NCBI GenBank assembly: GCA_902795195.1
Contig: CADBKF010000007.1
Location: 1 to 64,000 of the forward strand
From: Oscillospiraceae bacterium
GTDB taxonomy: Bacteria; Bacillota; Clostridia; Oscillospirales; Oscillospiraceae
Reading direction: 5' to 3'
Length of the DNA stretch: 64,000 nt
Each line of letters opens with the position of its first letter. Within the stretch, counting starts at the first letter, position 1. This document shows positions 26,025-39,704 of the stretch, piece by piece. Under the pieces are notes generated by a model that saw only the letters and a list, made by a program, of their open reading frames with translations, had not been told where the DNA came from and ran no database searches. The position numbers were made by a program, and so were the translations under genes.

Positions 26025-26881
26025 ACCCGAATGTAGAGACCTTTCTCGGCTGCGACGCGGGCTTTGCGGAGGCGAAGATCGTCCTCTTCGGCGCACCCTT
26101 CGACTCCACCACGAGCTTCCGTCCCGGCGCCCGCTTCGGCAGCGCCGCCATGCGGCACGAGAGCTTCGGCCTGGAGAGCTACAGCCCCTACCAGGACAAG
26201 GACCTGACCGATTACGCGGTGTTCGACTCCGGCGATCTGGAGCTCTGCTTTGGCTCGAGCGAGCAGGCGCTGGCGGACATCGAGGCCCGGGCCAGGGAGA
26301 TCCTGGACGCCGGCAAGCTGCCGCTGCTGATCGGCGGCGAGCATCTGGTGACGCTCGGCAGCGTGCGCGCGGTGCTGGAACGATACCCCGACCTGCACAT
26401 CATCCACTTTGACGCACACACGGACCTGCGGGACGACTATCTGGGCGCAAAGCTCAGCCACGCCTGCGTGATCCGCCGTTGCCACGACCTTCTGGGCGAC
26501 GGCCGCATCCACCAGTTCTGCATCCGCAGCGGCGAGCGGGCCGAGTGGGAATTTGCAAAGCAGCACACCGAGCTGCACCCGTTCTGCTTTGACGGGCTTG
26601 CGGAGTGCTGCGAGCGCCTGGCTGCCAGCGGCGCGCCGGTGTATTTCACGATCGACCTCGACTGCCTGGACCCGTCGTGCTTCCCCGGCACCGGCACGCC
26701 CGAGGCCGGCGGCGTGAGCTTCCCGCAGCTGCTGGACGCCATTCTGACCGTCTGCAAAACCAACGTGGTTGCCGCCGACGTCAACGAGCTGGCCCCCATG
26801 CTCGACCCCAGCGGCGTCTCCACCGCCACCGCCTGCAAGGTCCTGCGCGAGCTGCTGCTGGCACTCTCAGACAACATGTAG
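26021..26881 (+). CDS. speB: Agmatinase / N1-aminopropylagmatine ureohydrolase
   Basis: Manganese ureohydrolase releasing urea from agmatine or aminopropylagmatine. The 286-residue protein has the Mn ligand motifs GGEH, HFDAHTDLR and the SIDxDxxDP-equivalent TIDLDCLDPSCFPGTGTPEAGG. The start overlaps speE by 4 bp. Its TAG stop (26879-26881) lies inside the first GTAG-headed repeat unit, so the repeat supplies the end of the gene. Confidence 0.94.
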   Translation: MNPNVETFLGCDAGFAEAKIVLFGAPFDSTTSFRPGARFGSAAMRHESFGLESYSPYQDKDLTDYAVFDSGDLELCFGSSEQALADIEARAREILDAGKLPLLIGGEHLVTLGSVRAVLERYPDLHIIHFDAHTDLRDDYLGAKLSHACVIRRCHDLLGDGRIHQFCIRSGERAEWEFAKQHTELHPFCFDGLAECCERLAASGAPVYFTIDLDCLDPSCFPGTGTPEAGGVSFPQLLDAILTVCKTNVVAADVNELAPMLDPSGVSTATACKVLRELLLALSDNM

Positions 26882-27356
26882 GGACAAGCCTCGCTTGTCC
26901 GAAAACAGAGCTTCGGATAGAAAAACCGGACGAGCGCGGCTCGTCCCTACGGCAAGGTCAAAAAACAGTGTAGGGACAAGCCTTGCTTGTCCGGAGAATA
27001 ACGCAGAGAAAACCGCAGAGAAAAACCGGACGAGCGCGGCTCGTCCCTACGGCAAGGTCAAAAAACAGTGTAGGGACAAGCCTTGCTTGTCCGGAGAAAA
27101 CCGCAGAGAAAACCGGACGAGCGCGGCTCGTCCCTACGGCAAGGTCAAAAAACAGTGTAGGGACAAGCCTTGCTTGTCCGGAGAAAACCGCAGAGAAAAA
27201 CCGGACGAGCGCGGCTCGTCCCTACGGCAAGGCCAAAAAACAGTGTAGGGACAAGCCGCCTTGCTTGTCCGGAGAAAAACGCAGAGAAAACCGGACGAGC
27301 GCGGTGTCCCTGCAACAAGGTCAAAAAACAGTGTAGGGACAAGCCTTGCTTGTCCG
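26878..27356. repeat. Array of RAYT-associated palindromic units (left side)
   Basis: Units at 26878-26950, 26970-27050, 27070-27137, 27157-27225, 27245-27312 (right end degenerate) and a left half at 27333-27356. Each full unit is GTAG plus hairpin (GGACAAGC...GCTTGTCC), an A-rich centre and an inverted hairpin (GGACGAGC...GCTCGTCC) ending CTAC. Units are separated by a nearly identical 19-bp spacer (GGCAAGGTCAAAAAACAGT). The centre differs: unit 1 has ACAGAGCTTCGGATAG, inner units have CCGCAGAG. The half unit faces the transposase gene. Confidence 0.93.
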
Positions 27357-27386
27357 AAAAGCCTAATGAACAGGTGATGATGAACG

Positions 27387-27857
27387 ATGAATCCGTTTCC
27401 GACCCGGAAGAAAAATCGTCTGGAAAACTACGACTACTCGTTGCCGGGGTTTTATTTCATCACCTTTTGCACAGAAGGCCGCAAATGCATCCTGGGAAGT
27501 ATAGAAGAAAACGCGGATGATGCAAAGATTTGTTTGTCCCAATTTGGGAAAATAACGCAGGATGCGATCGAACGCATATCAAAAAGCTATAGCGGCGTAT
27601 TTGTTGACAGTTTTGTTATCATGCCAAACCATGTTCACATGATCCTGGTTTTACAGGACGGGTTTGATCAACTGCCAACCATCTCCAGAGTTGTTCAGCA
27701 GACAAAAGGTTTGATCAGCAAAAGAGTTGGCCAAAGGATTTGGCAGGTGCATTTTCATGAGCATGTGATTCGCGGTGAACAGGATTACCGGGAAATATGG
27801 GAGTATATTGAGCAAAATCCGGAAAAATGGATGTTGGATCGATATTACTGCGAATGA
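27387..27857 (+). mobile_element. REP-associated tyrosine transposase (RAYT, IS200-like Y1 family)
   Basis: A 156-residue single-strand transposase gene. The HUH motif is PNHVHMIL (His82, His84), and the C-terminal FHEHVIRGEQDYREIWEYIEQNP is typical of RAYT/TnpA-REP proteins. The catalytic Tyr is probably Tyr134 or Tyr140 (not assigned). The coding sequence is visibly AT-richer than its neighbours, suggesting acquisition. It lies between a left half-unit (27333-27356) and a right half-unit (27864-27887) of the surrounding palindromic repeat, as if the full element is hairpin-gene-hairpin and the other units are gene-less derivatives. It splits the polyamine gene cluster. Confidence 0.92.
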
Positions 27858-27863
27858 AAACAA

Positions 27864-27979
27864 CGGACGAGCGCGGCTCGTCCCTACGGCAAGGTCAAAA
27901 AAACATGTAGGGACAAGCCTTGCTTGTCCGAAAACAGAGCTTCGGATAGAAAAACCGGACGAGCGCGGCTCGTCCCTAC
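27864..27979. repeat. RAYT-associated palindromic units (right side)
   Basis: Right half unit 27864-27887 directly after the transposase stop, a 19-bp spacer, then a complete unit 27907-27979. This last unit and the first unit (26878-26950) are almost identical, including the ACAGAGCTTCGGATAG centre, so the array has matching outer units and different inner ones. The next gene's SD follows 9 bp later. Confidence 0.93.
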
Positions 27980-28002: not shown

Positions 28003-29262
28003 ATGAGCAGAGTATTAGTGATCGGCTGCGGCGGCGTGGCGAATGTCGCGATCCGCAAGTGCTGCCAGGTTTCGGAGGTCTTCACCGAGCTGTGCATCGC
28101 GTCCAGGACCAAGTCCAAATGTGACGCCCTTGCGGAGGCTCTCAAGGGCAAAACCGCAACCAAAATCACCACCGCCCGCGTGGATGCGGACAATGTGGAG
28201 GAGCTTTGCTCCCTCATCAACAGCTACAAGCCCGACCTCGTTATGAACATCGCCCTGCCGTATCAGGACCTCACGATCATGGACGCCTGCCTGGCCTGCG
28301 GTGTCAACTACATGGACACGGCCAACTACGAGCCCGAGGACACCGACGACCCCGAATGGCGCAAGATCTACGAAAAGCGCTGCAAGGAGCAGGGCTTCTC
28401 TGCCTACTTTGACTACTCCTGGCAGTGGGCCTACCGCGAGAAGTTCGAGCAGGCGGGCCTGACCGCCCTGCTGGGCTGCGGCTTCGACCCCGGCGTGACC
28501 CAGGCCTACTGCGCCTACGCCAAGAAGCACCAGTTCGATGAGATCGACACCATCGACATCCTCGACTGCAACGGCGGCGACCACGGCTACGCCTTCGCCA
28601 CCAACTTCAACCCTGAGGTCAATCTGCGTGAGGTCTCCGCGCCCGGCTCCTACTGGGAGGACGGCCATTGGGTCGAGATCCCGGCGATGAGCATCAAGCG
28701 GGAGTACAACTTCGACCAGGTGGGCGACAAGGACATGTACCTGCTCCACCACGAGGAGATCGAGTCGCTGGCGCAGAACATCCCCGAGGTCAAGCGCATC
28801 CGCTTCTTCATGACCTTCGGCCAGAGCTATCTGACGCACATGAAGTGCCTGGAGAACGTCGGCATGCTCTCCACCACACCGATCCTGTTTGAGGGCAAGG
28901 AGATCGTTCCGATCAAGTTCCTCAAGGCCCTGCTGCCGGACCCGGCCAGCCTCGGCCCCCGCACCCACGGCAAGACCAACATCGGCTGCATCTTCACCGG
29001 CCGCAAGGACGGCAAGGAGAAGACCTACTATATCTACAACGTCTGCGACCACCAGGAATGCTACAAAGAGGTCGAGAGCCAGGCCATCAGCTATACCACG
29101 GGCGTTCCGGCCATGTGCGGCGCGCTGATGATGCTGACCGGCAAGTGGACGCAGAAGGGCGTGCACACGGTCGAGGAGTTCGATCCCGATCCGTTCCTGG
29201 ACGCGCTGGACAAGTACGGCCTGCCCAGAAGCGAGAATTTCGAGCCCAAGCTGGTGGATTAG
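28003..29262 (+). CDS. Carboxynorspermidine/carboxyspermidine dehydrogenase (saccharopine dehydrogenase family)
   Basis: Reductive condensation of aspartate semialdehyde with a diamine (putrescine or diaminopropane), using NADPH, to carboxy-polyamine. The 419-residue protein has the Rossmann start VLVIGCGGVANVA (4-16) and the saccharopine-reductase fold, including LLGCGFDPGVTQAYC. Its role is inferred from the adjacent nspC gene. SD GGAGG lies 8 bp before ATG, just after the repeat array. Confidence 0.9.
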   Translation: MSRVLVIGCGGVANVAIRKCCQVSEVFTELCIASRTKSKCDALAEALKGKTATKITTARVDADNVEELCSLINSYKPDLVMNIALPYQDLTIMDACLACGVNYMDTANYEPEDTDDPEWRKIYEKRCKEQGFSAYFDYSWQWAYREKFEQAGLTALLGCGFDPGVTQAYCAYAKKHQFDEIDTIDILDCNGGDHGYAFATNFNPEVNLREVSAPGSYWEDGHWVEIPAMSIKREYNFDQVGDKDMYLLHHEEIESLAQNIPEVKRIRFFMTFGQSYLTHMKCLENVGMLSTTPILFEGKEIVPIKFLKALLPDPASLGPRTHGKTNIGCIFTGRKDGKEKTYYIYNVCDHQECYKEVESQAISYTTGVPAMCGALMMLTGKWTQKGVHTVEEFDPDPFLDALDKYGLPRSENFEPKLVD

Positions 29263-29332: not shown

Positions 29333-29359
29333 GTAGGGGACGGCGTCCTCGACGTCCCG
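29333..29359 (+). repeat. GTAG-headed single hairpin (type E, copy 1)
   Basis: GTAGGGGACGGCG followed by a GACGTCCCGC arm; an inverted, nearly identical copy is at 39931-39957. The preceding bases (29290-29330) look like a decayed relative (GCAGGGACGG...CCGTCTGC). It fills the gap between the two carboxynorspermidine genes. Confidence 0.7.
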
Positions 29360-29393: not shown

Positions 29394-30683
29394 ATGGACA
29401 ACAGAGCACCGTTTCAAATACTCGGTTCCCAGACCCCGGAACAGCTGTTCGGGGGCCTGAAAACGCCGTGCTATATCCTCGACGAGGCTGCCCTGATCCG
29501 CAACGGCGAGATTATGCAGGGCGTGGCCCGGCGCACCGGGGCACGGATGCTGCTGGCCCAGAAGGCCTTTTCCAACTACGACTGCTATCCGATCCTGGCG
29601 CCGTTTCTGGCGGGCACCGAGGCCAGCGGCTTGTTTGAAGCCCGGCTCGGCAGAGAGGAGCTGCCTGAGAAGGAGAACCATGTCTTCTGCGGGGCCTATC
29701 GGGATGATGAATTTGACGAGCTGCTCCGCTATGCCGATCATATCGTCTTCAATTCCCCGGCGCAGCTGGCCCGCTTCGGCGGCAAGGCGAAGCAGGCCGG
29801 CAAGAGCCTGGGTCTGCGCGTCAATCCGGAGCGCTCCACGCAGGAGGGCCACGCGATCTACGATCCCTGTGCGCCCGGCAGCCGCCTGGGCACGAACCGC
29901 GCCCAGTGGGACCGCTATATGACGGACGAGCTGATCGGGCTTCTGGACGGGCTGCACTTCCACACCCTCTGCGAGCAGAATTCCGACGATCTTGAGACCA
30001 CGCTGGACGCTTTCGCGGAAAAATTCGGGGACGTGCTGCCCCGAATGCGCTGGCTCAACATGGGCGGCGGTCACCATGTCACGCGGCCCGACTACGACAT
30101 CCCGCGGCTCGAGCGCTGCATCCGGCGGGCGCAGCAGGCGTGGGGCGTCACGGTCTATCTCGAACCCGGCGAGGCCTGGGCGCTGAACGCGGGTTTTCTG
30201 GCAAGCCGCGTTCTGGACCTCACGGAAAACAGCGGCGTCAAAAACGCGATCCTGGATGCCTCAGCTGCCTGCCACATGCCGGACGTGATCGAAATGCCCT
30301 ACAGCCCGCCCATCTTTGAAGCACAGGAGAGATCAGAACCCGTAGGGGACGGGTCCCCCGTCCCCGTAACGGACGGTTCCCCCGTGCCCGCAGCGGATGG
30401 GGCCCCCGTCCCGCTCCGGGAACCGGGATTCGATTGTTTGTATCGCCTCGGCGGGCCGACCTGCCTGGCCGGCGACGTGATCGGCGATTACGCCTTCCGG
30501 AAGCCGCTGCAGGTGGGCGATCTGGTCCTCTTTGGCGATCTGGCGATCTATTCCACCTGCAAGAACAACACCTTCAACGGCATGCCCCTGCCGGACATCT
30601 GGCTGCGGCACAGGGACGGCCGCCTCGAGCGCCTGACGGAATTCGGCTATGCCGATTTCAAAGGGCGGCTCGGAAGACGATAG
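29394..30683 (+). CDS. nspC: Carboxynorspermidine decarboxylase with in-frame repeat insertion
   Basis: PLP enzyme (alanine-racemase-fold decarboxylase) converting carboxy(nor)spermidine to (nor)spermidine. The 429-residue protein has the PLP-lysine region LLAQKAFSNYD (about 51-61), the glycine-rich NMGGGHHVTRPDYD and the C-terminal RLGGPTCLAGDV. It is longer than typical NspC (about 380-400) because residues 317-340 are three 8-residue repeats of the pattern xxDGxPVP, encoded by a triplicated palindromic DNA repeat. The insertion lies just before the conserved GGPTCLAGD motif, in what is probably a surface loop. Whether the enzyme is active is unknown. Confidence 0.9.
   Translation: MDNRAPFQILGSQTPEQLFGGLKTPCYILDEAALIRNGEIMQGVARRTGARMLLAQKAFSNYDCYPILAPFLAGTEASGLFEARLGREELPEKENHVFCGAYRDDEFDELLRYADHIVFNSPAQLARFGGKAKQAGKSLGLRVNPERSTQEGHAIYDPCAPGSRLGTNRAQWDRYMTDELIGLLDGLHFHTLCEQNSDDLETTLDAFAEKFGDVLPRMRWLNMGGGHHVTRPDYDIPRLERCIRRAQQAWGVTVYLEPGEAWALNAGFLASRVLDLTENSGVKNAILDASAACHMPDVIEMPYSPPIFEAQERSEPVGDGSPVPVTDGSPVPAADGAPVPLREPGFDCLYRLGGPTCLAGDVIGDYAFRKPLQVGDLVLFGDLAIYSTCKNNTFNGMPLPDIWLRHRDGRLERLTEFGYADFKGRLGRR
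30342..30413 (+). repeat. Three tandem 24-bp REP-like units inside the nspC reading frame
   Basis: Units 30342-30365, 30366-30389 and 30390-30413. The first is intact: GTAG followed by GGGACGGG-TCC-CCCGTCCC. The other two are diverged (GTAACGGACGG..., GCAGCGGATGG...). Each is exactly 24 bp and codon-aligned, so the frame is kept. Confidence 0.9.
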
Positions 30684-30690
30684 AAAACAT

Positions 30691-30830
30691 GGGCCTGTTG
30701 CAAAATGCACAAACCCGTCATTTCGAGGGAGCTTGCGACCGAGAAATCCGTATTCTCACCGCAGACAGATGCGAAAAAGAAACGGATTTCTCGCTTCGCT
30801 CGAAATGACAGAGCATTTTGCAACAGGCCC
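30691..30830. repeat. 140-bp inverted-repeat element (type B', copy 1)
   Basis: Outer 18-bp perfect arms (30691-30708 and 30813-30830, GGGCCTGTTGC...). Inner arms contain GTCATTTCGAG...GAGAAATCC and its inverse. A second copy in opposite orientation lies at 56320-56458. MITE-like and without coding capacity. Confidence 0.88.
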
Positions 30831-30877
30831 ATTTTTCTGTATTTTCAAAAATAAATGGTGCAATTTTCTGACGTTTG

Positions 30878-38920: not shown

Positions 38921-39704
38921 GGTCGCGATCGTGACCGGCGGCAGCTCCGGTATCGGACTTTGCGCTGCACAGTCCCTGCTCGCGCAGGGCTGTAAGGTCT
39001 ACATTTTCAGCCGGCGGCCCTTCACGCTCAAGGGCGCGGCGCACATCTGCGTCGACGTGACCGACGAGACGCAGGTGAAGGAGGCTGTCGCCCAGGTGCT
39101 GGGCCACGAAAAGCGGATCGACCTGCTGGTCAACTGCGCGGGCTTCGGCATCTCCGGCGCGGTCGAGTTCACTGAACTGGCCGACGCCAAGCGGCAGATG
39201 GACGTGAACTTCTTCGGCATGGTCAACATGAACAAGGCGGTGCTCGGCCCCATGCGCGCGCAGGGGAGCGGCCGCATTGTGAACATCAGCTCGGTGGCTG
39301 CGCCCGTGGCGATCCCGTTCCAGACCTACTACTCGGCGTCCAAGGCGGCGATCAACGCCTACACCTGCGCGCTGGCCAACGAGGTCCGGCCCTATGGGAT
39401 CACGGTCTGCGCCATCCAGCCCGGCGACATTGCCACCGGCTTCACTGCGGCGCGGAAAAAGTCGGAGCTGGGCGACGAGGAATATGGCGGGCGGATCTCC
39501 CGCAGCGTGGCGGTCATGGAGCACGACGAGCAGAACGGCATGAAGCCCGAGGTCGCCGGCGCCTACATCGCCAAGATCGCGCTGAAAAAGCGCGTCAAGC
39601 CGCTCTACACCATCGGCTTTTCCTACAAATGCGTGTGCTTCCTCGTCAAGATCCTGCCCTGCGGCATTCTGAATAGGCTCGTGGGCATGATTTATGCGAA
39701 GTAG
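38913..39704 (+). CDS. Short-chain dehydrogenase/reductase, possible 3-ketosphinganine-reductase role
   Basis: A 263-residue SDR with NAD(P) loop TGGSSGIG (8-15), NCAG, catalytic Ser-Tyr-Lys in NISS and YYSASKAA, and a hydrophobic C-terminal segment (about 232-258) that could tether it to the membrane. It overlaps the SPT-like gene by 8 bp, so the two products probably act in sequence: reduction of the keto product of the first enzyme would fit, but this is inference. Its TAG stop lies in a GTAG that begins a heptamer repeat. Confidence 0.85.
   Translation: MAKVAIVTGGSSGIGLCAAQSLLAQGCKVYIFSRRPFTLKGAAHICVDVTDETQVKEAVAQVLGHEKRIDLLVNCAGFGISGAVEFTELADAKRQMDVNFFGMVNMNKAVLGPMRAQGSGRIVNISSVAAPVAIPFQTYYSASKAAINAYTCALANEVRPYGITVCAIQPGDIATGFTAARKKSELGDEEYGGRISRSVAVMEHDEQNGMKPEVAGAYIAKIALKKRVKPLYTIGFSYKCVCFLVKILPCGILNRLVGMIYAK

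Follow-up and report, generated by a model that had tools for sequence, protein, structure and literature searches.

Palindromic repeats carried in frame in one loop of a polyamine decarboxylase in a genus of gut Clostridia

How does a dispersed palindromic repeat come to be translated, three times in succession, within a conserved enzyme? This question is raised by nspC, the gene for carboxynorspermidine/carboxyspermidine decarboxylase, in a 64,000-nt stretch of DNA from an Oscillospiraceae bacterium (hereafter the window), whose genome comprises 2.39 Mb in 94 contigs. The features discussed are located in Table 1. The nspC reading frame begins with ATG at 29394 and its product matched TIGR01047 in two stretches (E 2.5e-118; 394.8 bits, with a curated cut-off of 409). 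The closest PDB structure was the carboxyspermidine decarboxylase (CASDC) of C. leptum (53% identity). Catalytic residues of that enzyme (Lys43, His170, Cys173, Asp276, Cys306 and Tyr335; PMC11866407) were mapped onto NspC from the published work and an alignment, giving K57, H190, C193, D297, C357 and Y386, all of them invariant in a 52-sequence alignment (A1). As far as its sequence tells, NspC is presumably enzymatically active. The spacing between the catalytic Asp and Cys was 30 residues in the C. leptum enzyme (D276–C306) and 60 in NspC (D297–C357).

Table 1 Positions of the repeat units, the nspC region and other genes with in-frame inserts. Plain positions refer to the window; positions with an L prefix refer to other loci of the source genome.
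Feature	Position	Strand	Sequence or match
Unit 1, REP with a GTAG head and a perfect 9-bp hairpin, encoding VGDGSPVP	30342..30365	+	GTAGGGGACGGGTCCCCCGTCCCC
Unit 2, diverged copy, hairpin mostly gone, encodes VTDGSPVP	30366..30389	+	GTAACGGACGGTTCCCCCGTGCCC
Unit 3, diverged copy, hairpin mostly gone, encodes AADGAPVP	30390..30413	+	GCAGCGGATGGGGCCCCCGTCCCG
alpha9/beta12 loop segment, CHMPDVIEMPY to GGPTCLAGD, 49 aa	30303..30449	+	
nspC, carboxynorspermidine/carboxyspermidine decarboxylase, 429 aa, intact ORF	29394..30683	+	TIGR01047; PDB 9eaf
Carboxynorspermidine synthase gene, immediately 5' of nspC	28003..29262	+	NF043000, E 4.6e-125, under its curated cut-off
Intergenic GTAG REP 5' of nspC, subfamily other than that of unit 1	29333..29359	+	
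prfC with in-frame insert	L180:3-1703	-	
uxaC with in-frame insert	L153:12730-14319	+	
thrC with in-frame insert	L172:16035-17750	-	
nrdG2 with in-frame insert	L159:7634-8683	+	

Repeats were also seen on both sides of this gene pair. A BIME-like array at 26878-27979 adjoins the carboxynorspermidine synthase gene on its upstream side and holds two GTAG REP types (ACAAGCC..GCTTGTCC on the forward strand and ACGAGCC..GCTCGTCC on the reverse strand), alternating in orientation and mostly ~90-100 bp apart. Right behind the nspC stop lies a MITE-looking element of 152 bp (30685-30836) with 24-nt terminal inverted repeats (TGGGCCTGTTGCAAAATGC), enclosing a nested TGTCATTTCGAG-type palindrome.

The original prediction described three codon-aligned 24-bp units that give xxDGxPVP three times, the first being a perfect GTAG-headed hairpin. 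Direct reading of units 1-3 (30342-30413; NspC residues 317-340) and TRF, which reported an array at 30339-30412 (period 24, 3.1 copies, 80% matches, 0 indels), bore this out. Unit 1 reads GTA followed by GGGGACGGG-TCC-CCCGTCCCC, a 9-bp stem around a 3-nt loop, and its folding energy of -19.5 kcal/mol (z -3.3) was equalled by none of 200 shuffles, confirming the hairpin. Units 2 and 3 folded no better than shuffles (z -0.1 and -0.5, respectively). Differences among the three units were mostly confined to the first two codons and to third codon positions; they fall at few sites and, as a sequence pattern, do not prove selection at the protein level.

Unit 1 belongs to a family dispersed in the genome. 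Its pattern occurred at 54 places when up to three mismatches were allowed, and a reversed-pattern control at none. With a GTAG head, a palindrome and many, mainly intergenic, copies, unit 1 is a GTAG REP on the grounds of both anatomy and copy number, and units 2 and 3 are degenerate. In 790.9 kb of sampled DNA from the same genome, 422 GTAG hairpins of several subfamilies were counted. Weak matches to Y1_Tnp (PF01797; 20-26 bits), three of them above the Pfam cut-off, were detected in the genome, and one of the putative transposase genes (L003) is flanked by GTAGGGG REPs on both strands. The earlier claim that a REP resembling the intergenic repeats lies inside nspC with its frame kept and has been tandemly multiplied is supported. 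Arrays of the unit 1 subtype elsewhere in the genome had a spacing of at least 33 bp, compared with 24 bp in nspC; given this tighter spacing, the array may have arrived ready-made by copying instead of forming in place. Among ten long ORFs surrounding further copies of the subtype, a single Pfam domain (trmD) was recognised, with the REP upstream of it. A further 902-aa ORF with a REP pair and no family match (L179) was left out of the counts.

The repeat-encoded residues lie between CHMPDVIEMPY and GGPTCLAGD, a segment that we read in 85 nspC genes (71 outgroup and 14 from the genus) taken from draft, mostly metagenome-assembled genomes, one per species. In the C. leptum structure this stretch is named the alpha9/beta12 loop; it adjoins the helix that places Asp276 and precedes Cys306, its length varies among CASDCs, and helix alpha9 selects polyamine chain length (PMC11866407). 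The loop measured 16-20 aa in 64 of the 71 outgroup Clostridia, 22-50 aa in the other seven (L035, L045, L052, L056, L066, L068 and L095) and 21-76 aa in each of the 14 genus members whose loop could be read, and the part of NspC N-terminal to it was near-constant at ~302 aa throughout the orthologues. No convincing repeat origin was found for the long outgroup loops of L035 (50 aa) and L056 (41 aa) in comparison with their own loci. Subtracting the 24 repeat residues from the 49-aa loop of the window leaves 25 aa, the loop length in the early-branching genus member G012. The segment corresponding to residues 317-340 is absent from the orthologues, and these lengths rule out an ancestral loop of conserved length. 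The insert had been taken to create a new proline/glycine-rich loop: the repeat-encoded enlargement stands, whereas the loop itself already exists as alpha9/beta12. An assembly chimera was rejected, because the parts of the gene before (~77-83% identity) and after the loop (75-83%) are similarly distant from each relative. The AlphaFold2 model of NspC (52 sequences) had a mean pLDDT of 85 and dropped under 50 in just two stretches, 316-338 and 392-394; the repeat-encoded part (316-338) is predicted to be disordered.

The other genus members filled this loop with different repeats, each of which keeps the reading frame and lies on the coding strand. REPs with a GTAG head but of other types occurred in G002, G001 and G020, and in degenerate form in G017. 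A palindrome of MITE-like character, which encodes CHSERSEES or CHCERSEES, was present in the loops of G017, G003, G002, G001, G013 and G020, and GGGATCA heptads in those of G011, G014, G006 and G020. In a scan of the 14 genus nspC genes, stringent enough to overlook the degenerate G017 REP and one MITE-like copy, 13 repeat matches fell in the 1,851 nt of loop, compared with one terminator-like match in the 15,930 nt elsewhere. These fillers match repeats that are scattered through their carriers' genomes, with reversed controls at zero or low. The REP type of the crown reached 13-214 copies in carriers where it is common, and MITE-like ends numbered 29-190 in five carriers and 14 in G013 (reversed controls 0 for both). 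The MITE-like element was absent both genome-wide and from the loop in G012 and G004. Heptads were abundant in G000 and G006; counts for G011 and G014 are less telling, as the reversed control also matches there. Two loop palindromes were not tied to a dispersed family, namely that of G014 (0 copies in the DNA sampled) and that of G007 (4 loose matches in G006). In the window, GGGATCA-type heptads also stand beside a GTAG at 39701, and the heptad pattern had 345 matches genome-wide, overlapping ones included.

At least two gains of a REP are required because lineages without one separate G000 from the REP-bearing crown on the tree. Three different REP cores were seen in the loops of the genus, and together with the split on the tree these call for several independent events in the loop. 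The earlier claim of an insertion into nspC is supported as to the REP; the case is not an isolated one, as relatives fill the same loop with other repeats.

We also looked beyond nspC, scoring repeat islands in sampled DNA of the source genome for coding potential in one frame on both sides. Only 9 of 247 islands passed (8/219 and 1/28), compared with 1159/2000 (58%) and 549/1000 (55%) random sites. Most repeats avoid genes, and islands are strongly depleted in coding sequence. Among the nine that passed, known families were recognised in nspC, in uxaC and prfC (MITE-like) and in nrdG2 and thrC (REPs). The prfC spacer was 26 aa in all seven orthologues read and 47 aa in the source genome, the 21-aa insert surrounding a 61-bp palindrome. 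The uxaC insert was absent in G012, the sole relative found with the gene, and the thrC insert in both relatives found. Inserts in nspC, prfC, uxaC and thrC are in frame and absent from the orthologues found, in the manner of Rickettsia palindromic elements (RPEs). In-frame repeats were likewise present in dnaE and aroE of relative G006, and in dnaE, rimM and a phosphopantetheinyl transferase gene of relative G020. Two other ORFs of G020 carry tandem MITE-like units in frame: a decarboxylase ORF with a very long insert that may be broken (L275:9127-11100) and an ORF with several units and no family match (L281:3748-4737). The MITE-like element has four open frames out of six, yet nspC, prfC and uxaC all use its most hydrophilic one (GRAVY -2.1). 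The heptads are open on the forward strand only, which explains their orientation. The peptide string HSERSEE had no occurrence in the literature searched.

These observations are best explained by selfish repeats having entered a disordered loop in frame and been tolerated there, combined with local 24-bp duplication (probability roughly 0.8). The alpha9/beta12 loop of NspC would be permissive and would have taken up, in frame, a GTAG REP of the genome-dispersed family, probably moved by the host RAYT (REP-associated tyrosine transposase). Local tandem duplication, possibly aided by the hairpin, would then have made the three 24-bp units, in what we take to be the order of events. No target-site duplication could be defined for the nspC insert. 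The enzyme would tolerate the product, a flexible loop rich in Gly and Pro, whose effect is probably near-neutral. Across the genus, conserved proteins would occasionally come to carry REPs, the 61-bp MITE-like palindrome or GGGATCA heptads as fixed parts of their surface loops, and the NspC loop appears to be the site reused most. Selfish insertions would survive where the loop they enter is permissive and the frame is preserved.

The repeats might instead have been kept because a longer alpha9/beta12 loop tunes helix alpha9, the selector of polyamine chain length. The loop is joined to this helix, which sets specificity, and comes just before the catalytic Cys; it is the one loop that has been hit repeatedly in the genus, and other CASDCs vary there: the loop of the Akkermansia enzyme contains an insertion of 27 aa, which is not stated to be repeat-derived (PMC11866407). 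However, the fillers share neither sequence nor length (21-76 aa), the insert is predicted from the model to be disordered, inserts in prfC, uxaC, thrC and other genes share no common function, and a permissive loop accounts for the pattern without any benefit, which makes an adaptive origin improbable. We consider it very unlikely that expression is controlled by the hairpin within the nspC mRNA, or by a DNA-binding site there, with translation being incidental. The 85-nt segment does fold better than nearly all of its shuffles (z -3.55) and REPs are thought to work in mRNA stability (PMC3733652), but the hairpin was lost in units 2 and 3 while the reading frame stayed open, and relatives have heptads or nothing where the hairpin would be. 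A chance resemblance of an ancestral low-complexity loop to a REP can practically be dismissed: loop length does vary elsewhere without recognisable repeats (L035 and L056), yet identity to a 54-copy family with no control matches and the short loops of most outgroups already contradict it.

On a bolder reading, the genus repeatedly captures its mobile repeats in the NspC loop, a genuine capture site where they become coding sequence. The loop would diversify by species in length and composition, might tune the helix that sets polyamine specificity, and the genus as a whole would be a free-living counterpart of Rickettsia for protein-coding repeats. We regard this as tentative and rather doubtful.

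In-frame palindromes have precedents. GTAG REPs, which have a 5' GTAG head and an imperfect palindrome of ~20-40 bp, are mostly intergenic, with a minority in frame within conserved genes ('REP-decorated' proteins), and are linked to RAYT genes; more than half of the intragenic inserts are dimers or groups, and recB of two Xanthomonas species carries different REPs at about one site (PMC3733652). The repeats described here share the GTAG palindrome, the mainly intergenic location, the few in-frame cases in conserved genes and the RAYT link, and differ in the tight 24-bp tandem array of nspC and in the genus-wide reuse of one loop by REPs and two unrelated repeat families. A term search of that paper returned no mention of Firmicutes or Clostridia. 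RPEs of Rickettsia are palindromic, lie in frame in many conserved genes, and are translated and presumed tolerated (PMC10969869, PMC2229807). The likeness is one of behaviour only, with no claim of family membership by sequence: palindromes lie in frame in conserved genes and would be translated, and nspC, prfC and uxaC all use a single frame of the 61-bp CHSERSEES element, whereas RPEs measure ~105-150 bp in an intracellular alphaproteobacterium and the present repeats 24-61 bp in gut Clostridia. In the papers we read, we found no description of a Clostridia genus with this habit, or of one loop used by three unrelated repeat families. The novelty lies in the phylum and in a single loop being reused by three such families.

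Protein-coding palindromes, so far best known in Rickettsia and some REP-rich species, are thereby extended to gut Bacillota. Three unrelated repeat families have independently come to occupy the same enzyme loop in related species, a natural replicate experiment that makes it testable how selfish repeats become protein, which frame survives and whether the inserts are neutral or function-changing.
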